Positions 16,263-31,506 are shown, numbered from the stretch's first letter. The stretch: 64,000 bases of DNA from Candidatus Rifleibacteriota bacterium (GCA_012517355.1 JAAYVD010000172.1:1-64000), one strand, 5' to 3'. The notes: generated from the letters alone by a model not told the origin. A program made the numbers and translations.

Positions 16263-16393
16263 AGGAATTCTCACCCAGCAATCCGAAGCTTTTCTGATGA
16301 ACAGGGATTTCCGAAGGCCTTGCCCCCATCGACAAGCCAGAGCAAAGCAGCCCGTAGAACCGCTTCAGCGGCCATGGTGAGAATTGCCGGGCC
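16263..16393 (+). repeat. Family B dispersed repeat, copy 1
   Basis: Shares ATCCGAAGCTTTTCTGATGA, then GGGATTTCC, CCCCCATCGACA and GAACCGCTTCAG...GGCCATGG with copies at 40.8, 42.4 and 51.7 kb. It lies in the divergent region between the TonB receptor and the response-regulator gene. Confidence 0.85.
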
Positions 16394-16405
16394 TCCGCCG
16401 GAGGG

Positions 16406-16436
16406 TTGGACCGGGGTCCGGCGCCGGTGGTATCAT
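16406..16436 (+). promoter_or_regulatory. Weak promoter candidate before the REC-ATPase gene
   Basis: TTGGAC at 16406-16411 and TATCAT at 16431-16436, with a long 19-bp spacer. The start codon follows about 45 nt later. Only the -10 is convincing. Confidence 0.3.
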
Positions 16437-16481
16437 GAAGGCAGCACCCGCCCCCCGTGGCGGCATGAGAGGTCGGCCCGG

Positions 16482-17387
16482 ATGAAAGTCCTGATCGTCG
16501 AAGACGACGAGCCCTCCCGTCTGTTCCTGGCCACCGTGACGCGTCACCTGGGCCACGAGGTGAGCGAGGCGGCCGACGGGGCCGCGGGTTTGCGGCAGTT
16601 CGAGGCGGTGGGGCCCGATCTGGTCTTCTCGGACATCGCCATGCCGGTCATGGACGGCCTGCAGATGCTGGAACGGATCCGGGAGAGGAGCGCGGAGGCC
16701 ATCGTCATCATGACCACCGCCTTCGGCTCTCCCGAGCACACCTTGCGGGCGCTGCGGCTGCGCGCCAACGACTTCCTGGTCAAGCCCCTCCAGATCCAGG
16801 ACATTGCGGCCAACCTGCGCAAATACGCCGACGTTCTCGGCACGCGGTCGACCGAGCGGGAGGTGGTCGGCTTCATCCTCCTGCGGCACCTCGTGATGCG
16901 CCTCGGGAACCGGCCCGAACTGGTGGGGAAGGTGGCCGACCGGCTGATGCAGGAGACGGACGGCCGGATCCCCCGACCGGAGCGGTTGGCCGTCCGGCTC
17001 GGCCTGGTGGAGATCCTCCTCAACGCCATCGAGCACGGCAACCTGGGCATCACCTACGAGGAGAAGACGGCCGCCCTGGGCGGCGATCCTCTCGCCTGGC
17101 AGAACCTCGTCGCGGCGCGCGCCGCCGATCCCCGCTACCGCGACCGCCAGGTGACGGTCGAATACCGCCTGGAAGGGGACAGCTGCTGCTGGACCATCAC
17201 CGACGAAGGGGTGGGGTTCGACTGGCGGGGGGTGCCCGACCCCAACACTCCCGGCAACCTTCTGGCCGCGCACGGGCGGGGAATCATGCTGTCCCGCCTG
17301 ACCTTCGACGAGGTGGTTTTCGAGGGCTGCGGGAACCGGGTGGCCTTGCGCAAGAAGGTGCCCGCCAGCGCTGGGGTTGCCGGGTGA
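16482..17387 (+). CDS. Response regulator fused to an anti-sigma-type ATPase domain
   Basis: A 301-residue protein. Residues 1-120 are an intact receiver (acidic pair at 8-9, D51 in FSDIAMPVMDG, K-P switch). Residues about 135-300 are a HATPase_c_2-type domain related to RsbW/SpoIIAB anti-sigma kinases: an E-I-L-L-N-A-I-E-H-G-N N-box, a TDEGVGFDW G1-box and a GRGIML G2-box are present. GAGAGG precedes the ATG at 16482. Such fusions couple a two-component input to partner-switching output. No STAS or sigma-factor gene is visible nearby, but SpoIIE-type phosphatases lie 3-10 kb away and could belong to the same network; that link is inferred. Confidence 0.9.
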   Translation: MKVLIVEDDEPSRLFLATVTRHLGHEVSEAADGAAGLRQFEAVGPDLVFSDIAMPVMDGLQMLERIRERSAEAIVIMTTAFGSPEHTLRALRLRANDFLVKPLQIQDIAANLRKYADVLGTRSTEREVVGFILLRHLVMRLGNRPELVGKVADRLMQETDGRIPRPERLAVRLGLVEILLNAIEHGNLGITYEEKTAALGGDPLAWQNLVAARAADPRYRDRQVTVEYRLEGDSCCWTITDEGVGFDWRGVPDPNTPGNLLAAHGRGIMLSRLTFDEVVFEGCGNRVALRKKVPASAGVAG

Positions 17388-19993: not shown

Positions 19994-22900
19994 TCAAGGT
20001 GGGGCGGGGAGGGTCCTCCGGTCCGTCCGGACCAGCACCAGGGTGGCGTCGTCGTCCCAGGGGACCGGGCGGGTGATCGCCTCGACGCGTTCGAGAACGG
20101 CGGGCAACGGGTCGGCAGGGCGATCCCGCAGGGCTTGGCACAGGACCCCGACCAGCCGGTCGAAGCCGACCATGGTGCCGGTGGGGTCCCGTGACTCGAC
20201 CAGGCAGTCGGAATACACGAATACGCTGCGGCCGGCCAGATCGACGATCCGGGTGGGGTAGGGGGCTTTGCGGCCGATGCCGAGAGGGGTGCTGGGCATG
20301 GCCAGTTCCTCGACCGTGCCGTCGGACCCCACCAGCACCGGGTAGGTCTGGCCGGCGTTGGCACAGCGCAGGACCGCCCCGGTGGGGTCGAAACAGCCCA
20401 GCCAGCAGGTCATCATCTTCCGCTTGCCCAGGAGGGTGAGGAAGGCCTGGTGCATCTCGCGGAGCACGGCGCCCGGGTCGTCGGGGTGCCGCGGGCAGAG
20501 AAGGGTGAAGCCGGCCTTGGCCATGGCGGTGACGAGAGCGGCCGAAATGCCGTGGCCCGAGACGTCCCCCATCACCACCGCCAGCGCGCCCCCGGGCAAC
20601 GGGAGGAAATCGTAGAAATCGCCCCCGACCGCCTGGGTCATGCGGTTGAGCCCGCACGCGGTGACCCGGCCGGCGGTGACGGCGGCGGGGGGGAGCAGGT
20701 GCCGCTGCACCATCGCCGCGACCTCCATTTCGCGCAGCAGTTCGACGGTCTTGTTGAACTCCCCGCACAGCACGCCGAGTTCGTCGGTGGCGTGGGCCGT
20801 CAGCGCCTGCACCGGCCGGCGTTCCCGGAGGGCGCGGATCCCGGCGGCCACTGCCTCCAGGGGCATGAGCACCCGGCCGAGGAACAGCACGGCCAGCAGC
20901 ATGCCGAACAGGCTGGCGCCGGCCAGGGTTCCCCAGATCCGGCGGCGGTGGGCCGCCAGCCGCCGGTCGACGACCCGGCGGGGGGTGAGATGGACGAGCA
21001 GGTAGTCGCGCACCCGTGTTCCCGGTCTCAGCGTGACCAAAAACTCCCGGCCCCGGAAAGCGCGTTGGAAGGTGCGGGTGGAAGCCCCCGTCCCCTGCAC
21101 TTCCCGTCGGAAAACCTCGGTCATGGCCGGATCGTCGATTTCGGGGAAGGAGGGTTCCTCGTGGCTGGGCAGGTACAGCGCCTTCCAGGAGGTTTCGCCC
21201 CGGTGGGCGGGGAACCGGCGGAAGACGAGACGGAGGTAGGTCGCCTGGAAGGAGTCGAGGTCGTGGCTCAGGACGGCCAGATACTGGCCCCGGCCGAGTT
21301 CGTCGGTGAGGACGGTGCTGTAGAGCATGCCGGCCCCGAGCGGGGTCTCCATGATACGGCACCGGAACAGGTAGGAGCGCATGCCGCGCAGGATACGGAC
21401 GAACTCCTCGCCCAGCAGGCCGTCGAGGCTGGCCTGGGGTGGGGCGGCGGGGGGCGGCCCCCCCTGGGCGCCGGCCAGGGAGTCGGCGTATTCGATCATG
21501 TTCCGGGTCGCCGCCTGGAAGGTCCGGACCAGGCGAACGTAGTAATCCCAGGTGGAACGGCGTGGCTGCCGGCGATAGTCCTGGGGATCGGGGCCGAACA
21601 GGTCCCATTCGTGAGGGGCGGGGGACCAGCCCCGACGCATCCATTCCTGCAGAACGAGCGGGCGCCTTGCCGGACCCGCCCGCGCGGCCCGTTGCTGGGT
21701 GCGATTCCAGGGCTCGGTGTCGGCCAGCAGGACCTTCGAGGTCGACCCGATCAGGTAGGCCTCCAGCACCACGAACCGGTCCAGCATGTCCCGCATGCCG
21801 GCCAATGTGCGGGCGATGGGCGGGCGGGGCCGCCGTCTCTCGCCCAGCCGGCGCCCATACACGAGTCCGCGACGGGCAGCGAACGATTCGAACCCTGCAT
21901 CCACCTGTTCCAGGAAGGACAAGCCCTCGCGGTGGGCCTCCTCGACGAGGGAGGCCTCCGCCCCGGCCAGCCAGGCCTGGCCCACCACCCCGGCCAGCCC
22001 CAGGGGGAACCCGACCCCGAGAGCCAGCAGGACGACCAGCTTCCCCCCCAACGGCAGCGGCAAAGAACTGCCATGAATGAACAACATGTACAACCTGTAC
22101 AAAATGTACAGGCTGGCCGCGGCGAACAGGGCGGCGATCGCCAGACGCACCCCCGCCGGCTCTGGCGGCGGAGGCACGAGGGCGGCCAGCAGGTCCCCGT
22201 CGGGGGTCTCCTGCACGACCAGGCTGCCTTCGGGCAGCGGAAAGACCTGGCCGGGTTCCCGCCGGTACCGCTCCACCCCAGCCAGGAAGGCCCCGCTGGC
22301 CAGACCCGGCGGCGCCTGGAACCGGCCGTCGGGAAGGTGGAAGCCCAGGCCGCGGCCCATCCGGCGGGCGGCGGCGGCCACCCGCTTCCAGGCCCGGCCG
22401 GCATCGGGACGGCCAGCGTGCTGGATGACCACCAGGCCGGCCCGGTCCCCCGGGGGCGCGGCGGACCACCAGAAGCCCACCTGCCGTCGTTCCTCCGGCC
22501 GGGCCAGACCCTGCCGGGTGTTCCACAGGCGGCCCCCGCCGTGGGTGCGCATCACCAGGGCCGTATCGCGCGGATTGAAGACGAGCGCCCCCGCCTCCCC
22601 GAAAAGGTCGGCGGGGAGAGGCTGGTAGGGCAGGAGGGGGGACCGGGCCCAGGCGAACCAGCGCTCGATCCCGGCCGTGACGGCCGGGGAGGAACCCGGC
22701 CACCGCAGCCGGCCCGCTCCATCGAACAGCAGCACGGTACAGGGCGGGGACCCGGGAGAGGGCCGTGGGGGCCGGCCGGTCCGCCGCCAGCGCCGGAAAG
22801 CCCGTGACCAGTCCGCCGATCGTTGGCGCAGCGGGTCCCCCGCCGCGATGGCCCGTTCCAGGAAGGCGGTGGCCTCGCCCACCCGGGCGAGGCGGGCGGT

Positions 22901-23005
22901 CTCCCGGGTCGACCGCTCCCAGCCGAAGTACCCGGCCCAGAAGACCAGGCCCGGTACCACCCAGAGGGCGAAGCTCACCAGCAGCCATTTCTGCCGTGGA
23001 GTCAT
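19994..23005 (-). CDS. Membrane sensor with HAMP and SpoIIE-type PP2C phosphatase
   Basis: A 1003-residue protein. A first membrane helix lies at about 8-28, an extracytoplasmic domain follows to about 300, a middle cluster of helices is at about 305-370, a second large domain extends to about 690, a helix lies near 695-715, then HAMP (about 715-770). The C-terminal SpoIIE phosphatase starts near 775: GGDFYDF at 794-800, GDVSGHG at 814-820, YSDCLVES near 931 (glycine of the usual SDG replaced by cysteine) and WDDDAT at 983-988. Metal-binding aspartates are all present, so it should be active on a phosphoserine/threonine substrate. Good GGGGGAGG ribosome binding site; ATGA overlap with the upstream paralogue. 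Probably part of a partner-switching pathway. Confidence 0.9.
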   Translation of the reverse strand: MTPRQKWLLVSFALWVVPGLVFWAGYFGWERSTRETARLARVGEATAFLERAIAAGDPLRQRSADWSRAFRRWRRTGRPPRPSPGSPPCTVLLFDGAGRLRWPGSSPAVTAGIERWFAWARSPLLPYQPLPADLFGEAGALVFNPRDTALVMRTHGGGRLWNTRQGLARPEERRQVGFWWSAAPPGDRAGLVVIQHAGRPDAGRAWKRVAAAARRMGRGLGFHLPDGRFQAPPGLASGAFLAGVERYRREPGQVFPLPEGSLVVQETPDGDLLAALVPPPPEPAGVRLAIAALFAAASLYILYRLYMLFIHGSSLPLPLGGKLVVLLALGVGFPLGLAGVVGQAWLAGAEASLVEEAHREGLSFLEQVDAGFESFAARRGLVYGRRLGERRRPRPPIARTLAGMRDMLDRFVVLEAYLIGSTSKVLLADTEPWNRTQQRAARAGPARRPLVLQEWMRRGWSPAPHEWDLFGPDPQDYRRQPRRSTWDYYVRLVRTFQAATRNMIEYADSLAGAQGGPPPAAPPQASLDGLLGEEFVRILRGMRSYLFRCRIMETPLGAGMLYSTVLTDELGRGQYLAVLSHDLDSFQATYLRLVFRRFPAHRGETSWKALYLPSHEEPSFPEIDDPAMTEVFRREVQGTGASTRTFQRAFRGREFLVTLRPGTRVRDYLLVHLTPRRVVDRRLAAHRRRIWGTLAGASLFGMLLAVLFLGRVLMPLEAVAAGIRALRERRPVQALTAHATDELGVLCGEFNKTVELLREMEVAAMVQRHLLPPAAVTAGRVTACGLNRMTQAVGGDFYDFLPLPGGALAVVMGDVSGHGISAALVTAMAKAGFTLLCPRHPDDPGAVLREMHQAFLTLLGKRKMMTCWLGCFDPTGAVLRCANAGQTYPVLVGSDGTVEELAMPSTPLGIGRKAPYPTRIVDLAGRSVFVYSDCLVESRDPTGTMVGFDRLVGVLCQALRDRPADPLPAVLERVEAITRPVPWDDDATLVLVRTDRRTLPAPP

Positions 23006-26000
23006 GCGCCTCCCCCTCGGTGGACCAGGGCCAGGATGGTCCGGCTCCGGTGGCGGGCGCCCGAAGGCGCGGAGGTGGTCTCCAGGAGTCGATCCAGCCA
23101 TTCCTCCTCGGGAACCTCCCCGGACGGAACCGTCCCGACGGTCGGGTTGGGATCCGTCCCGGCCCGGCGCGGGGGCCTGGAACCCGGATCGGGTGGGGAA
23201 GGATGAAGCTGGGGAACGTTCGGGGAGGCTGGGCGGGCGGGTGCCCCCGCGCGGGGTTCCGCTTTTCGGGATGCCGTCTCTCCAACTGCCGCATGGGTGC
23301 CGGGAGACCCGCTGGGGAAGGCGCCCGTGACCGGTGGCCACGCCGGACCGGCCTGGCCAGCGCGCGTGGCCAGCCAGCCAGGGGAGGTGACCAGGCACCA
23401 GTGGCCGGGCGGCACGATCAGCGATGCCTCGGCGACGGCCGCCTGGGAGGCCTCCCTGGATGGCCCCGTGGCGGCCCCGCTGGTCGACCCGGGTGCCACC
23501 CGGTCTGGCGCGACCCGGTCTGGCGCGACCCGGTCTGGCGCGACCCGGTCTGGCGCGACCCGGTCTGGCGCGACCCGGTCTGGCGCGACCCGGTCTGGCG
23601 CGACCCGACCGGTTGGGTCCCCGGCCGGTTCCGACGGGGGGCCGGGGAGCCTTCCCCTCGAGTCGATGTCAGCAAGGCCAGGAATCGGTTCGCCGATCGG
23701 GCACAGGTCCCAACGGAAGGCCCCGCGGGCAGCCAGGGCGATCCGGCCGGAGGTCGGGTCGAGGAAGCCGAGGAGCACCCCCGCCCCCTCCAGGCCTGGG
23801 TTGCGGTCGAGGAACTCCCCGACCAGCCGTCGCACCACCACCGCCGGGGAGCCCGCCTCGGGGCCGGTCGACAGGCGGAAGGCCATCTTCGTCATGGCCA
23901 GCCCGAGCGCGGATCCCAGCATGGTGCCGGGCAGGCTGGCCATCCAGAAGACCACCCGTCCCGGCCCCGCCTCCCCGTAATCGAAGATCTCGTCACCGAT
24001 GGCCGACGAGGACCGGGTTCGCCCGACGAGGCGGAACGGGCCCTCTGGACCCGCTCCGCCAGTGGTCAGCGGACCGGGCGGGAACAGCTGCCCGTGGATG
24101 GCCTGGGCGGTGGCCAGATTGTGCAGCTCCTCCATGATGGACTGGATGCCCTGGCCGATCTCTTCGAGCACGTCGCCGGTGGCAGGCATTGGAAAGCCGA
24201 CGAACCGGCCCTCCTGCAGGTGCCGGATCCCGACACTCAGCGCTTCGACCGGCTCCAGCAGCAGTTCCGAGAAGATGAGCCCCACCCCGAGGGCGAACCC
24301 CAGAAACAGGGCTGCGATCACCTGGAAGGCCCGCCAAAGGCGCCCCGCCTCGGCCCGGATCGGCTCGAGCGGCGCGGCCAAAACCAGAACGTAGTCACGC
24401 AGCTGTCGGCCGGGCACCGCCACCAGGATCGAGGACCGCCCCCGATACCATCCCATGGCCGACTGCGCCGAGTTGGTTCGGGCCGCGACCCCCACCACGT
24501 CCAACAGGTCACGCTCATCGGCCGCCACCCGGAAGGCGGCGTAGGTTCCCGGCACTCCGGCCCGCAACACCGAGGTGAACCGCAGGTCCCTTCCCCCGGG
24601 GAGGGCGCGGATCCGCCGCCGGGCCTCCCGCTGGAAACTCCGCTCCAGGGCGTTGTTCTCGTGCGTGATGAGCAGGGTGGCGAACGCGAGGTTGCCCCCG
24701 TCGCGGGCCAGATCGACATACAGCCGCATGGTCTGGTGGCCGAGGGTGAACCGGCCGATGCGCCCGGCGATGGCCGAAAATTCCCCCGCCAGTCCGATGG
24801 TGATGCCCTTCTGGATGTCATACTGGACGCTTCGGGACCGCTCCTTCAGCCCCGCGGGGTCGTTCCAGTGCTGGACGGTGTTGGCGCCGATCTCGTCGAG
24901 CAGACGCTCGGTGTTGGCCCCCCAGTATTCCCGGAAGGAATACCAGGAACCCGGTTGCTGCCGGAACAACACCGTCCCGTCACCGGCGATGGCATGGACC
25001 GAGACCGCCCGCGCCGCGCGCCGGAACCACGGGGTCCACCGCTCCAGGCCGCGCCGGGCCCCCGTCCGGTCGTGGGTGCCGGCCCAGATCGCCCGATACC
25101 GGGTGGCCATCCGGACCAGATACGGGGAAAAACTCTGGTCGAGCTTTTCCAAAACCTGCCGGGTTTCGGCGATCCGGTCGCGGATCAGCCCTTCCTCCCG
25201 GGTCTGGGCGGCCAGGCGGCCGAACCCCAGGAGGGTGACCAGGCTGCCGCCGGCGGCCAGGCCGAACAGGATCAGGATCTGCAACCGCAGGGGAACGAAC
25301 CGTCCGGCCAGGACCCGCGAGACCCCTGACAGGAGCAGGAGGGCGGCCAACAGGAGCCCCGCGCGGGCCGGCCGGCCGTCCCAGAACCCCGGCGGCGGGG
25401 CGGGCAGGGCGGCCGCGGCGGCGACGAGGAACCGCTCGCCGGCCAGGGCGGTGGCTTCCGCCTGGTCGGCCGTCCGCCGTTCGGTTACCGGCATGAGTCG
25501 CAACAGGTCGTCGAGGCGGGAGGTGTCCAGGGGGTCGGAGCCGGGGGCGGGGAGCGCCTTCCGGGACTCCAGGTCGGCCAGGCCCCACCGGAAGCGCGGG
25601 CCGGCCAGGCGGGCCTGACGGTCGAGGGCGGTGCGCACCAGGGCCGCGAGGTCGAGGCGGCCCTGGTCGACGATGGCCAGGACGAACCCCTTCCGGCGGT
25701 GGCGGTCGCGGAAGGGAAATACCCCAGCCAGCCGCGGCTGCCCGAGTTCGGAGAGGTCGTGGAGCCGGTGGGGCTGTCGGGCCAGGCGGGTCAGGCCATC
25801 AATGGGACCCAGGAACGATTCGGCGAGCCGCCGGCTGCTTCGCCCGGCTTCGTCGTCGGGTGCCGCGGCCAGCCGCCGGATCAGGGCGAGGGTCTTCTCG
25901 GACGCGTTGACCATGCCGGTCTCGGTCCAGGGGGCCAGCCGGCGGCGGCCGTCCCCGTCGAACAGGAACAGCCGCCAGGCGCCCTGACCAGTTCCCGGGC

Positions 26001-26286
26001 CGACCCCGCGGCCCCGGACCACCGGGGTCGGGTCCTCGCCCCACCGCAACGCGGTCACCACCCGCCGGGTCAGGTCTTCGAACCGTTGCAGCGGATCGAC
26101 CTGCCGCGTCAGGGCGGCCAGGATCGCGCGCAGGTCATCCTGGACGGCCCGGGCCGCGGTCTCACGGTCGGCGGCCCGCCGGCGGTCTCCCAGGTCGAAC
26201 CAGGCGGCCAGCGGCAGGGCGACCAGAACGGCGAGCACCAGCCACCGGAGGGCGGGCGGCCCGGCGGGTGGGGAAGGGGGGGGCAT
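23002..26286 (-). CDS. Membrane sensor with degenerate SpoIIE phosphatase domain
   Basis: A 1094-residue paralogue of the downstream sensor: helix at about 14-32, extracytoplasmic domain, helices near 320-375, second domain, helix near 680-700, HAMP, and a SpoIIE-like C-terminus. The phosphatase motifs are eroded. IGDEIFDYG keeps an aspartate, but the GDVSGHG motif is replaced by ASLPGTM, and the C-terminal SDG motif by TSPGW. It is therefore probably catalytically inactive. Seven perfect VAPDR pentapeptides (residues about 895-929) interrupt the domain, and a Pro-rich tail of over 100 residues follows. The frame is intact throughout, arguing against a simple pseudogene. It may act as a receptor subunit controlling the active paralogue; that is inference. 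Confidence 0.85.
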   Translation of the reverse strand: MPPPSPPAGPPALRWLVLAVLVALPLAAWFDLGDRRRAADRETAARAVQDDLRAILAALTRQVDPLQRFEDLTRRVVTALRWGEDPTPVVRGRGVGPGTGQGAWRLFLFDGDGRRRLAPWTETGMVNASEKTLALIRRLAAAPDDEAGRSSRRLAESFLGPIDGLTRLARQPHRLHDLSELGQPRLAGVFPFRDRHRRKGFVLAIVDQGRLDLAALVRTALDRQARLAGPRFRWGLADLESRKALPAPGSDPLDTSRLDDLLRLMPVTERRTADQAEATALAGERFLVAAAAALPAPPPGFWDGRPARAGLLLAALLLLSGVSRVLAGRFVPLRLQILILFGLAAGGSLVTLLGFGRLAAQTREEGLIRDRIAETRQVLEKLDQSFSPYLVRMATRYRAIWAGTHDRTGARRGLERWTPWFRRAARAVSVHAIAGDGTVLFRQQPGSWYSFREYWGANTERLLDEIGANTVQHWNDPAGLKERSRSVQYDIQKGITIGLAGEFSAIAGRIGRFTLGHQTMRLYVDLARDGGNLAFATLLITHENNALERSFQREARRRIRALPGGRDLRFTSVLRAGVPGTYAAFRVAADERDLLDVVGVAARTNSAQSAMGWYRGRSSILVAVPGRQLRDYVLVLAAPLEPIRAEAGRLWRAFQVIAALFLGFALGVGLIFSELLLEPVEALSVGIRHLQEGRFVGFPMPATGDVLEEIGQGIQSIMEELHNLATAQAIHGQLFPPGPLTTGGAGPEGPFRLVGRTRSSSAIGDEIFDYGEAGPGRVVFWMASLPGTMLGSALGLAMTKMAFRLSTGPEAGSPAVVVRRLVGEFLDRNPGLEGAGVLLGFLDPTSGRIALAARGAFRWDLCPIGEPIPGLADIDSRGRLPGPPSEPAGDPTGRVAPDRVAPDRVAPDRVAPDRVAPDRVAPDRVAPDRVAPGSTSGAATGPSREASQAAVAEASLIVPPGHWCLVTSPGWLATRAGQAGPAWPPVTGAFPSGSPGTHAAVGETASRKAEPRAGAPARPASPNVPQLHPSPPDPGSRPPRRAGTDPNPTVGTVPSGEVPEEEWLDRLLETTSAPSGARHRSRTILALVHRGGGA
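23501..23605 (-). repeat. Seven perfect 15-bp tandem repeats encoding VAPDR
   Basis: The unit CGGTCTGGCGCGACC (plus strand) is repeated seven times without a mismatch. The 15-bp length keeps the minus-strand gene in frame and encodes VAPDR. Perfect identity implies recent expansion, and copy number is likely to vary between strains. Confidence 0.97.
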
Positions 26287-27093: not shown

Positions 27094-30000
27094 TCATTGC
27101 TTGCCCTTGACCAGCTCGAGGCCCTTGAGTGCCTCGGGATGGTTCGGGATGATCTGGAGAGCCTGCTGGTAGGTCCGGGCAGCGGCCGCGAAATCCGAAT
27201 AGGAGCCGTGCTCCTCGGCCACATCGAGCAGGGCCCGCACCGCCTTCTGCCGGAACTCCTTCGCCTTCGGCCCGGCGCCCATCTTTTCGAGTTTTTTCGT
27301 CATTTCCACGATCGCGCCGACGTTGGCAGCCGCCGCCTCTGGCTCGACCATGGCCTCCAGGGCGGCGATCATGCCCGCCTTGTCGGTGGGAAGCGGCTTG
27401 CCCTCGCCGCCGGAGGGGGAGGCAGGGGCGGGAGTCGCGGGCTTGTCGGCGGCCGGGGCGGGCGTGGGGGCCGGCTCCTTGGCGGGGGGAGCGGGCTTGG
27501 GCGGTTCCCCGGCGGGCGGGGCGGCGGGGGTGGTGGGGCCGGAGCCGGCGCCGCCGGGCAGCAGTTGCAATACCCGCGCCACCTGGGGGTGCTTGGGGGA
27601 GAGCAGCCGCGCCTGGTCGATGGCCTGGCGCGCGAGGTCCCAGGACTGGTAGGAGGTGTGTTCCTCGGCGATGTCGACCAGGGCCTTGACCGCGCGTTCG
27701 CGGAAGTCGGCGGCGGCGGCCTTCCCCTTTTTCTTCTCGAGGGCCTTCAGCAGCCCGGCGATCGCGTCGGCCTTGCCGGCCACGTTTTCGGGGGCGGTCA
27801 GGGTCTCGAGTTGCGTGGTGATCTCCTCGGCCGACAGCTTGGGATCGGCCGCCACCACGGCGATGTCGGGCGGGGGCGGCGGGGGAACGGCCTCGCTGCC
27901 CGGCTGGTCGGTCGCGGCCGGCGGCGGTTCGGGCGCGGGCGTCGTGGGGACGCGGTCGGCGAGACGACCGGCCAGCCCCTTGGCTTCGCCCTCCGGGTCG
28001 CCGAGGGAAAGGCTCTGCAGACCCTTGACCAGGCCCAGGGCCTTGGCCGGCTGGTCCGCTTCGAGGCGCCGCGCCTCGGCCAGGTAGCGGGCCCGCACCA
28101 GCGGGGCGACCTGCTGCAGCACGTCCTTCCCTTCCGCCGCCCCGAGGGCCTTGAGTTTGGCGGCCAGGCTCTTGGGGGCCGGTTCGGGGTTGTGCCGGGC
28201 GATCAGGTCCTGCCAGCGGGCGAGGAGACCGGCCTGCCGGGCGGCCCGCCGGGCGGCGAAGGCCTGCTCGGCCTCGGCCCGGCGGGGGTCCTTCGCGGGG
28301 AACAGGCCCAGCGCCCGTTTCTGCAGGGTGGCGAACTCGGCGGCCGACCCGGCCTGGAGGGCCTTGTCCTGCAGCCCTTCCAGGGCCTGGCCGCGGAGCC
28401 GGTCGGCCGCCGCGGGGTCGGCGGCGGCCAGCTTGGCGAGGCGGCCGGCCAGTTCGGGGACGTCACGGGTCAGGATCTCCCCCGCCAGGCGCTCGGTCTC
28501 CAGGCGGTCGCGGGTGGCCGCGTCGGCCCCCGTTGCCAGCCTGGCCAGGCGGGTCTGCAGGTCCTGGCGGTCGGCGTCCAGGTCGTGGTTGTCGGGCGCG
28601 ATGACCTGGATCTCGTCGAGGATGGCCAGGGCCTGGGCCGGCGACGGATCGCGCGTGGCCCGGAAGGCGGCGACGTACCGTTCGCGCAGGGTCTCGAGCC
28701 GCCGGAGTGCCTCCTCCTCACGCTTGAACTCGAAGGCCAGCCGCCGCAGGTCGCCCACCGCCTCGGACACCGAGGCCGGGGGCTCCAGCCGGGCGAGCCG
28801 ACCGTCGAGGCCGGCCTGGAACTCGTCGGCCGCCTGGGCCTGGCGGGCCGTGGCCTCCTCGGCCTGCACCAGTTGTTCGGTCAGCAGCAACTTCTCGGCC
28901 AGTCCGGGCACCCCGCTGGCCATCTGGTCGGCGGCGCGGTAGTGCAAGAGCGCCAGGGTTTTGCTTCCCTTCAGGGCCAGGTCGCCCTCCTGGCTGAACC
29001 GGGCGGCCAGCCGCCCGCGAAGGGAGCGGGCCTGGGTGGCCGCCCCCTGGGCTTCGAGAAGGCGCAGGTTGTCGGCGATCCCGTTGACCGTGAAGGGGCC
29101 GGGAAAGGATGCCAGTCCGGGGTCGAGGGCGGCTTCGAGCATCGCCACCAGGGGGGCGGTGGAAACGGCCGCCCCCTCGGGGCCTGAGCTGGGTGGGACG
29201 ACCGGCGGGGTGGGGGAGGCGACGATCGTGGTCGCCTCGCCGGCCCCGGTGGCGGGAAGGGCAGGCGCGGGGCTGGCGGCAATGGGTTCCGGGCCGGGGC
29301 CGGTGGCGGGCAGCCCGGTCGGCACGGAGATGGACGGAACGGCGGGGGGCAGCCCCGTCAGGGTGGGGGGTGCGGAGGCGGCGGGGAAGGCCGGCCCAGA
29401 CACCAGCCCCGGGGCTGGTTCTCCCGTCGTCTCTGGTCCGGTCTGGGCGGTCGGCGTGGGTTGACCGGTGAGGCCCGTCTGCCCGGGCCCGCCGGCCTGA
29501 CTGGCCTGACCAGTCTGAACCGCCTGACCGGCCGGAGCCGACGCCACCGGGACCGGGCCGCCCCCTGGCTGGGGCCCGGGGCCCGCAGGGCCCAGTCCGG
29601 GCCGGCCCGCCAGGAACCAGATGCCCCCCGCCGCCAGCACGGCGACGGCCGCTCCCAGCCAGGGCTTCCACCCTCCCGTCTGCCGTTCGCGCTCGGCCGT
29701 GTCGAACAGGCTCTTGACGCTCGACTGCCGCTGGCTCAGCCGCCGCCGGCGGGAGCTGGTCGCGGCGTTGCTCTCGTGCTCCCCGGGGCTGGCGAACCCT
29801 TCCAGGGCGGTGAGGATCTCCTCGATCTCCGGCCGGGAAGCCGGCTCCTTGTCGAGCATCCGCTTGACCATGGGCAGGAAGGGCAAAAACAGGCTGCCTT
29901 CGGGCAGCGCGGTCATCGGCAGCGTTGCCTGGATGTGCTGCAGCGCCACGGCCAGGTCGGGGTTGCTGGTGGTGTCGGCCCGGAACGGCGGCTCGCCGAA

Positions 30001-31470
30001 GATGAGTTCCCAGAAGATGATGCCGATCGAGTAGACGTCGGACTTGGCGGTGATCTCCCGCTTGCCGGTGCACTGTTCCGGCGACATGTACTGCGGGGTG
30101 CCGACCGTGGTGCCGGTGCGGGTGAGATGGGCATGCGCCTTGGCGATGCCGAAATCGAAGATCTTCAGCAGCCCTTCCCGGGTCACCATGATGTTGCTCG
30201 GCTTGAGGTCGCGGTGGATGATGTTCTTGCGGTGGCAGGCCTGCAGGCCTTCCAGGAGCTGGATCATCAGGGGCGCCAGGCGGGCGCCGTCCTTGCGCAG
30301 GGCCGCTTTCAGGTCGGACAGCAGCGCCCCGTCGATGTATTCCATGACCAGGAAGGGCCGCTTCGTGGCGCGGTCGGTGCCCGAGGCGTAGATGTTCAGC
30401 ACGTTGGGATGGCCGACCGTGGCCAGCAGCTGGCCCTCCTGCAGGAACCGCTCGACGACGCCGGGAATGGCCATCGTCTCCTCGTTCATCACCTTGATGG
30501 CCACCGTGCGGTTGAGCGTGGTGTCGAGGGCCTTGTAGACCTTGCCCATGCCGCCCGCCCCGACCTCGGCGATGATGCGGTAGATCTCGCCGATCGTCTG
30601 CCCGTCGCCGGTCACCGGGACGTCGCCGGGGCGCAGCCGGTTCAGCTCGCGCTTCAGGTGCTCGATGATGTCGGGGATGGCTGGCCGCTGGTCCGGCTTC
30701 TTGGCCAGGACCCGCCGCAGCAGGTCGAGGAAGGGCCGCCCGGCCGGGGCCGCTTCCAGCTCCTGCCAGGGCGGTTCCTGGTTGAGGTGCTGCAGCGCCA
30801 CCGACAGGCCGGGGTCGGTCGCATCCTTTTCCGCCTCGAAGGGAAGGCGGCCCACCAGGAACTCCCAGAGCATGACCCCCATGGCGTAGATGTCGGAGGC
30901 GGCCGTGATCTCGGTCTTGCCGAGGCACTGCTCGGGCGACATGTAGTGCGGGGTGCCGATCGCCACCCCGGTGCGGGTCATCTTCTGCGAGGTCTTGGCG
31001 ATCCCGAAGTCGACCAGTTTGAGTTGGCCATTCTTGTTGATGAGCACGTTGGCCGGCTTCAGGTCGCGATGGATGACGCCTTTCTGGTGGCAGGCATGGA
31101 TGCCCCCCAGCAACTCGATGCAGTACTGCAGCAGCCGGGCGGGGTCCTTGTGCAGTTCGTCGCGGTGCTCCTCGAGGGTCTGACCCTCGACGAACTCCAT
31201 GACCAGGAAGGGGATGTTGGTCGCGTCATCCACCCCGGCCGCGTAGACCTCGATGATGACCGGGTGCCGGACCATGGCCAGGATGCGGCCCTCGTTGAGG
31301 AACCGCTGGACGACCGACTGGTCCTTGGCGGCGTCGGGGTGCATGATCTTGATCGCCACCTCCCGATGGAGGTTGACGTCGGTGGCCCGGAACACCATGC
31401 CCATCCCGCCCGCCCCCAGGCGGCCGATGATGCGGTAGTTCCTCCCCAGCACCTGATCTTTCTGGAGCAT
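27094..31470 (-). CDS. Receptor Ser/Thr protein kinase with two kinase domains and TPR-like C-terminus
   Basis: A 1458-residue protein. Kinase 1 (about 10-275) has GAGGMG at 19-24, catalytic K41, HRDLKPAN at 133-140 and DFG at 153-155. Kinase 2 (about 295-560) has GAGGMG at 303-308, K325, HRDLKPSN at 418-425 and DFG at 438-440. Both keep the GTPxYMSPEQ activation segment, so both look active. A single membrane helix lies at about 603-620. The extracytoplasmic half starts with a Pro/Ala/Gly-rich linker (about 620-790), then helical repeats; the last two are homologous units of about 80 residues (K-A-L-V-D-I-A-E-E-H and R-A-L-L-D-V-A-E-E-H cores) of TPR type. The ATG at 31470 lies 7 nt after a good -10 box, implying a leaderless message. 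Confidence 0.93.
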   Translation of the reverse strand: MLQKDQVLGRNYRIIGRLGAGGMGMVFRATDVNLHREVAIKIMHPDAAKDQSVVQRFLNEGRILAMVRHPVIIEVYAAGVDDATNIPFLVMEFVEGQTLEEHRDELHKDPARLLQYCIELLGGIHACHQKGVIHRDLKPANVLINKNGQLKLVDFGIAKTSQKMTRTGVAIGTPHYMSPEQCLGKTEITAASDIYAMGVMLWEFLVGRLPFEAEKDATDPGLSVALQHLNQEPPWQELEAAPAGRPFLDLLRRVLAKKPDQRPAIPDIIEHLKRELNRLRPGDVPVTGDGQTIGEIYRIIAEVGAGGMGKVYKALDTTLNRTVAIKVMNEETMAIPGVVERFLQEGQLLATVGHPNVLNIYASGTDRATKRPFLVMEYIDGALLSDLKAALRKDGARLAPLMIQLLEGLQACHRKNIIHRDLKPSNIMVTREGLLKIFDFGIAKAHAHLTRTGTTVGTPQYMSPEQCTGKREITAKSDVYSIGIIFWELIFGEPPFRADTTSNPDLAVALQHIQATLPMTALPEGSLFLPFLPMVKRMLDKEPASRPEIEEILTALEGFASPGEHESNAATSSRRRRLSQRQSSVKSLFDTAERERQTGGWKPWLGAAVAVLAAGGIWFLAGRPGLGPAGPGPQPGGGPVPVASAPAGQAVQTGQASQAGGPGQTGLTGQPTPTAQTGPETTGEPAPGLVSGPAFPAASAPPTLTGLPPAVPSISVPTGLPATGPGPEPIAASPAPALPATGAGEATTIVASPTPPVVPPSSGPEGAAVSTAPLVAMLEAALDPGLASFPGPFTVNGIADNLRLLEAQGAATQARSLRGRLAARFSQEGDLALKGSKTLALLHYRAADQMASGVPGLAEKLLLTEQLVQAEEATARQAQAADEFQAGLDGRLARLEPPASVSEAVGDLRRLAFEFKREEEALRRLETLRERYVAAFRATRDPSPAQALAILDEIQVIAPDNHDLDADRQDLQTRLARLATGADAATRDRLETERLAGEILTRDVPELAGRLAKLAAADPAAADRLRGQALEGLQDKALQAGSAAEFATLQKRALGLFPAKDPRRAEAEQAFAARRAARQAGLLARWQDLIARHNPEPAPKSLAAKLKALGAAEGKDVLQQVAPLVRARYLAEARRLEADQPAKALGLVKGLQSLSLGDPEGEAKGLAGRLADRVPTTPAPEPPPAATDQPGSEAVPPPPPPDIAVVAADPKLSAEEITTQLETLTAPENVAGKADAIAGLLKALEKKKGKAAAADFRERAVKALVDIAEEHTSYQSWDLARQAIDQARLLSPKHPQVARVLQLLPGGAGSGPTTPAAPPAGEPPKPAPPAKEPAPTPAPAADKPATPAPASPSGGEGKPLPTDKAGMIAALEAMVEPEAAAANVGAIVEMTKKLEKMGAGPKAKEFRQKAVRALLDVAEEHGSYSDFAAAARTYQQALQIIPNHPEALKGLELVKGKQ

Positions 31471-31477
31471 GGTTGCT

Positions 31478-31506
31478 ACTGTACCCATTCCCCTGGAGGC
31501 CGTCAA
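31478..31506 (-). promoter_or_regulatory. Sigma70 promoter giving a leaderless kinase mRNA
   Basis: On the minus strand TTGACG (31506-31501), a 17-bp spacer and TACAGT (31483-31478). Only 7 nt separate the -10 from the ATG at 31470, so the predicted transcription start is at or next to the A of the ATG. No Shine-Dalgarno is present, which fits. Confidence 0.7.

Follow-up and report, generated by a model that had tools for sequence, protein, structure and literature searches.

Pairs made up of an active and a dead enzyme are well known among kinases. In the open-access papers, the bacterial PPM pseudoenzymes that we found described were lone ones such as RssB, and neither paired active and dead SpoIIE proteins nor Riflebacteria signalling were found there. 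Among the closest described systems are the phosphatases SpoIIE and RsbU, which are activated when dimerisation via the regulatory helix or linker, alpha0, alpha1 and alpha2 moves a switch so that the metal site becomes complete (PMC5468089; PMC12143880). In B. subtilis SpoIIE the core metal ligands have been identified as D628 (together with the G629 carbonyl), D746 and D795 (PMC5468089). AlphaFold models extend the switch mechanism to HAMP-linked phosphatases (PMC12143880), and the PP2C domain of SiaA is dimeric, via helices (PMC7647112).

The DNA analysed here (the window) is a stretch of 64,000 nucleotides from a Candidatus Rifleibacteriota bacterium (GCA_012517355.1, JAAYVD010000172.1:1-64000). 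It carries on its minus strand two overlapping genes, A (upstream) followed by B (downstream):

23002..26286, minus strand: gene A, pseudophosphatase receptor paralogue, 1094 aa
19994..23005, minus strand: gene B, predicted receptor-type SpoIIE/PP2C phosphatase, 1003 aa, catalytic residues intact
23002..23005, minus strand: ATGA overlap of the A stop and the B start (translational coupling)

The lengths, coordinates and ATGA overlap given in a preliminary description of this locus were exact, and the paralogy proposed there extends over the full length of the proteins: profile-profile comparison aligned A and B end to end over 834 columns (E 6e-50), direct BLASTP aligning only the last third, at 26% identity. 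A multi-helix/HAMP layout had also been assigned to both proteins. Its multi-helix part held, with four predicted transmembrane segments in each protein at matching positions; Pfam gave a weak HAMP match for B (E 0.069) and none for A, and a HAMP-like two-helix layout was visible in the structural model of A.

Analysis of B revealed the following catalytic features:

20024..20653, minus strand: PP2C catalytic domain of B (res. 785-994)
20606..20626, minus strand: GGDFYDF
20549..20569, minus strand: GDVSGHG (the D628 equivalent is D814)
20204..20215, minus strand: YSDC (the D746 equivalent is D933; Gly is changed to Cys, likewise in both orthologues)
20042..20056, minus strand: DDDAT (D795 equivalent)

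B matched the Pfam SpoIIE family (PF07228) with 127 bits (cut-off 25, E 1.1e-36), and every core metal Asp is kept (D, D and D at the columns of D628, D746 and D795). GGDFYDF, GDVSGHG and WDDDAT, which B had been said to keep, were all present, the third motif being YSDC. B is therefore an intact-looking protein in its motifs, and it would be a SpoIIE/RsbU-type serine phosphatase acting as the catalytic subunit of the pair. It probably acts on the phosphorylated form of an anti-anti-sigma protein of the STAS type, the gene for which lies elsewhere.

The equivalent domain of A has a different character:

23005..24024, minus strand: pseudo-PP2C domain of A (res. 755-1094), core strands, alpha1 and alpha2 kept, metal Asp lost, disordered insert
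23920..23940, minus strand: ASLPGTM replacing GDVSGHG (res. 783-789; the D628 equivalent is S784)
23498..23607, minus strand: 15-bp tandem repeat, 7.3 copies, coding for (RVAPD)n, in the insert of the dead domain

With respect to the active form, GGDFYD is changed to IGDEIFD, GDVSGHG to ASLPGTM, TDG to TSPG and DDxT to RSRT in A. These changes leave A with none of the three core metal ligands (S, P and S at the D628, D746 and D795 columns); E is found at the GGD Asp, and the second Asp of GGDxxD is retained. This agrees with the loss of GDVSGHG and of the SDG motif, in a frame that stays open, reported for A before. PF07228 did not match A at its curated score. A profile made from this genome's own SpoIIE domains matched the N-half of the A domain (E 4.8e-21), and the top sequence match of the domain profile was RssB. 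An AlphaFold2 model of the C-terminal part of A (28 aligned sequences) contained a PP2C domain with alpha1, alpha2 and core strands. These elements, together with the HAMP-like helices and a long linker helix, were modelled mostly at pLDDT >90; the inserts, in one of which the 15-bp repeat has perfect copies, were disordered. Fold matches of this model at E <= 0.001 were PP2C-fold proteins, the first of them being RssB of P. aeruginosa. Conserved elements of A include the linker AxxIxxQLxPxGPL and alpha1, SALxLAMxKMALRL. As judged by sequence and model, A is a pseudophosphatase in which the fold is retained and the metal site is gone, and the conserved elements support the view that it keeps the linker, alpha1 and alpha2, which are dimer interface elements in RsbU, SpoIIE and SiaA.

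The remaining parts of both proteins are predicted to be periplasmic or to connect sensors and output:

25378..26199, minus strand: first periplasmic sensor module of A (res. about 30-303), dCache-like in the model
24367..25206, minus strand: second periplasmic sensor module of A (res. about 361-640), dCache-like in the model
24025..24354, minus strand: TM4, HAMP-like helices and alpha0 linker of A (res. 645-754), AxxIxxQLxPxGPL kept
20936..22933, minus strand: two periplasmic sensor regions of B (res. about 25-283 and 345-690), with TM2-TM3 between them

The first 690 residues of A were modelled (pLDDT 82) as two alpha/beta modules after long helices. Most of the better PDB matches of this model were ligand-binding domains of the dCache type from chemoreceptors and histidine kinases (E 1e-4 to 1e-3, with low TM scores), so each subunit may carry two dCache-like sensors; Pfam gave one weak dCache_1 match among 16 relatives.

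We consider that the pair is probably a two-subunit heteromeric membrane receptor with A as the regulatory pseudophosphatase subunit. Such an A-B heteromer appears the most likely arrangement because A keeps the interface elements and has lost the chemistry, the genes overlap, and the two are co-inherited and constantly adjacent, as described below. Both subunits would be built on the same plan, with two dCache-like sensors, four transmembrane segments, a HAMP-like relay, an alpha0 linker and a C-terminal PP2C domain, and they would be co-produced by translational coupling and then assemble. Signals at the sensors of A (and at those of B) would set the conformation of the dead switch helices of A, which would position the switch of B so that the metal site of B is completed or not; A would thus either activate or restrain B, and the output would probably be partner switching. 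Heterodimerisation of A and B, the direction of regulation, the ligand and the substrate are what we infer. The gene overlap and the co-inheritance fit two co-expressed homodimers as well, and the Cys after the Asp in the third motif of B (YSDC) would count against the proposal. The heteromeric receptor suggested in the preliminary description, in which the dead member senses or restrains, is thus partly supported.

The 7.1-Mb host genome, placed by named relatives in Candidatus Ozemobacteraceae (Riflebacteria), contains 76 matches to PF07228, 70 of them at E <= 1e-10, compared with 57 and 34 at that threshold in two genomes of the same genus. About 20 intact SpoIIE receptors stand single, and 22 tandem same-strand A/B pairs of large receptors were found. 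Their junctions are 4-nt overlaps in 17 cases, 8-nt overlaps in three, and gaps of 4 and 15 in one case each. All three core Asp are lost in eight of the 22 upstream members (that of the window, L026, L033, L036, L039, L042, L043 and L049), each of which retains the second Asp of GGDxxD; the upstream member of L023a has lost one core Asp, and the set is complete in the other 13, including L024 after refined alignment. No downstream member has lost a core Asp (0/22). Fisher's exact test for 9/22 A against 0/22 B gave about 0.001, with losses that are not independent. In a tree of the sensor-HAMP region, from which the PP2C columns were excluded, the window, L036, L042, L043 and L049 formed one clade and L026, L023a, L033 and L039 were placed elsewhere. 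Since dead A thus partly share a clade, about five loss events, all upstream, are to be counted and not nine, and the bias toward the upstream position, taken alone, is only suggestive. Together with the repetition of the lost motifs in orthologues, it indicates that loss in A is more than chance. Both members look intact in 13/22 pairs, so the architecture does not demand a dead partner; the original pairing of an active with a dead enzyme therefore stands for this locus, where an intact-looking B adjoins a true pseudophosphatase, and does not describe every pair of the genome. Over cut-off, the host genome also gave 24 matches to STAS and about 14 to HATPase_c_2, none of them tied to the window pair. 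With 76 SpoIIE matches to 24 STAS matches, most of its phosphatases are without an obvious private substrate.

In the same sensor-HAMP tree upstream members grouped with upstream members and downstream with downstream, with matching sub-clades for most pair lineages. Since the A and B trees match, the pairs have been inherited and duplicated as units. Distance matrices of A and B from the 22 host-genome pairs were correlated (Spearman 0.54; 0/2000 permutations as high, p <= 5e-4). A profile of five dead A found relatives in all 24 family genomes at E <= 1e-10 and in 22/24 at E <= 1e-60, the latter threshold giving no match in other families of the phylum; a back-translated search with an alignment yielded no conserved stretch. 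In a tree of 41 A the intact-motif sequences fell on one side (100*) and all non-intact ones of the window's lineage in a sister clade (100*) that is spread across Candidatus Ozemobacteraceae, and the B tree repeated the shape of the A tree at supported forks. The non-intact clade contains L092 and L098/L099, which have GGE and otherwise nearly intact motifs; the simplest reading is that GGD changed to GGE first and that complete loss then occurred in parallel.

Direct orthologues of the window pair were found in two genomes of the same genus, G012 and G013. Their A members show the same lost motifs, DEI(F/Y)DY and ASLPGTL, and their B members keep GDVSGHG, YSDC and DDATV, so that the loss is conserved in orthologues. 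ASLPGT and LGSALGLAMTKMA are nearly invariant in A of the three species. These results confirmed the original observation, and the pattern is larger than first noted. Comparison of the genes flanking the orthologous pairs revealed nothing in common besides the pair, and named no substrate. Since no other neighbouring gene is shared, the pair itself is the unit. At non-intact A loci with visible downstream sequence, B adjoined in 29/29; among these B the copy of G014 has an in-frame stop. This TAA lies at about 5530 of L111, where both pair members are altered, and represents decay or a sequencing error. Two further genes are located near the pair in the window: one for a response regulator with a fused HATPase_c_2 domain of the RsbW-like kind (16320-17387, plus strand), which lies on the opposite strand at a distance of 2.6 kb and is not conserved beside orthologous pairs, and one for a protein of 1470 aa in which two Ser/Thr kinase domains stand in tandem (27094-31506, minus strand), upstream of the pair on the same strand.

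A is under purifying selection. Between G012 and G013 the dN/dS of A was 0.22 in each of sensors 1 and 2, 0.13 in the HAMP region, and 0.21 in the N-half and 0.44 in the C-terminal part of the dead domain, the N-half of the live domain of B giving 0.13. Among the three species, invariant positions made up 57% of sensor 1 in A versus 40% in B, and 8% of the low-complexity insert of A. Open frames are retained in the 27 dead A of the tree, from many genera. The possibility that A is a pseudogene was ruled out by dN/dS, the open frames and orthologues with the same motifs, and that of a loss unique to this locus, or of an assembly error, by its presence in G012, G013 and other paralogues. An extra A/B copy in G013:C13 (L124 / L137) is broken by stops, a decaying pair unlike the conserved ones.

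The alternative that survives best, though we regard it as unlikely, is that A works on its own as an RssB-like adaptor whose dead PP2C domain holds or delivers a partner (e.g. a sigma factor, or the STAS protein that is also the substrate of B), with B as a homodimer and the genes coupled since both outputs share a regulon. RssB is both the closest solved structure to the A model and the top match of the domain profile, E. coli RssB works as an adaptor without active-site residues (PMC7226468, PMC5468089), and pairs altered in both members in four genera indicate that a non-catalytic pair can be conserved. However, A was never found without B, as an independent adaptor could be, the sensor-to-HAMP regions of A and B have one common history, and the C-terminal half of the A module, with its variable insert, is the least conserved part. 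The latter also speaks against A being a decoy that binds the phosphorylated substrate of B without turnover and competes with B: this would agree with a retained fold lacking metal ligands, but PP2C substrate contacts lie around the active site and in the C-terminal half, precisely the poorly conserved part with the low-complexity insert, and a decoy has no need for two sensor domains under purifying selection, so we hold it to be very improbable. That the former active site of A has a new or rearranged activity, either catalytic or in ligand binding, has a slimmer chance still; several A paralogues share the motif E-x-F/Y-D ... A-x-L/V/I-P-G and none of the eight dead A has lost the second Asp of GGDxxD, but the motif is absent from the independently lost lineages L026, L033 and L039 and from distant orthologues (MRTD type). 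Least credible of all is functionless loss in a decaying gene carried along by B, which the drift of the active-site region and C-terminal half, the 15-bp repeat expanded in that half and the stop-broken copy of G013:C13 could suggest, but which is opposed by the open frames of the 27 dead A, a dN/dS of about 0.2 in the sensors and N-half, the near invariance of ASLPGT and LGSALGLAMTKMA, and losses that are old and common to a clade.

Returning to the heteromeric receptor, related genera contain pairs in which B is altered too:

Genomes G002, G010, G014 and G016-G022 (loci L101, L103-L108, L110, L111, L113 and L121): altered B orthologues

B is visible in 10 genomes of genera g3, g9, g10 and g11, and its D628-equivalent Asp is lost there, GDVSGHG being replaced by AEVSGND (or a close variant), AKVTGND, ATVSGND or ANISGND; these B, of pattern A(E/K/T/N)(V/I)(S/T)GND, are partnered with dead A. 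In g9 and g10 the SDG and DD motifs are altered as well. Since B has also lost the D628 equivalent, the pair must work without normal catalysis in the four genera, and both subunits may be non-catalytic there, as the altered pairs are conserved and constrained; in the g11 comparison dS was near saturation, so that dN/dS is indicative only. The change of D to E in g3 and g11 could still permit metal binding, and K, T or N in g9 and g10 would be harder to reconcile with activity. An active and a dead member are therefore one of three pair states, given the 13/22 pairs with two intact-looking members and the four genera with altered B. We tentatively propose, at somewhat less than even chance, that Ozemobacteraceae possess a large co-duplicated family of phosphatase receptors that are heterodimers and whose upstream subunit has turned into a pseudophosphatase repeatedly, and that in some genera (g3, g9, g10 and g11) both subunits lost the key metal Asp, the conserved pair signalling via its PP2C switch helices while phosphatase chemistry plays little or no part.

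In G012 (Ca. Ozemobacter sibiricus) two tandem giant HAMP receptors (L134:15883-18954 and L134:18954-22355) adjoin a SpoIIE pair and have class III guanylate/adenylate cyclase domains as outputs. By eye the first cyclase keeps both metal Asp (CDLRGF, GDAIVAVF) and the second seems to be without them (SSLTGF, GEKILVLF), which would make this a seemingly similar active/dead pairing with a different output.

The larger pattern is that receptor phosphatases of the SpoIIE/RsbU type occur in pairs that were duplicated together and in which one subunit is a pseudophosphatase. One genome offers 22 natural pairs in several states (both members intact, partner partly lost, partner dead), to which related genomes add pairs with both members altered. 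This series suits the study of the PP2C switch across a dimer, of whether one active site per dimer suffices, and of how pseudoenzymes originate after gene duplication, and it defines a class of receptor in an uncultured phylum whose genomes contain as many as 76 such phosphatase-domain matches.

Among known systems, two are parallels by analogy only. In GacS/RetS-type sensor kinases a membrane sensor controls its paralogue by associating with it; these are histidine kinases, whereas A and B are phosphatases with overlapping genes and many co-duplicated pairs. In the proteasome the switch helices of the inactive paralogue (alpha) reposition those of the catalytic one (beta), in an assembly and chemistry unrelated to A/B; the parallel between PP2C phosphatases and the proteasome has been drawn in PMC5468089. 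RssB resembles A in having lost active-site residues and kept the PP2C fold and the switch and linker, but it is a soluble ClpXP adaptor of sigma-S without an active paired paralogue, and a receiver domain of the RssB type was not found at the N-terminus of A, where transmembrane and sensor modules are located. SiaA of P. aeruginosa (PDB 6K4E), matched in both profile and fold searches, is a membrane receptor with HAMP and PP2C output; unlike the proposed A/B receptor, it is a homodimer with two transmembrane segments, encoded with its kinase and substrate and without a dead paralogue. SpoIIE and RsbU, the B. subtilis PPM phosphatases with the alpha-helical switch, have the same fold and all the metal Asp of B, and in them, as proposed here, the linker and switch helices that precede the domain form the regulatory interface; they work as homodimers or together with RsbT, to which they are not related, whereas the partner proposed here is a dead paralogue.
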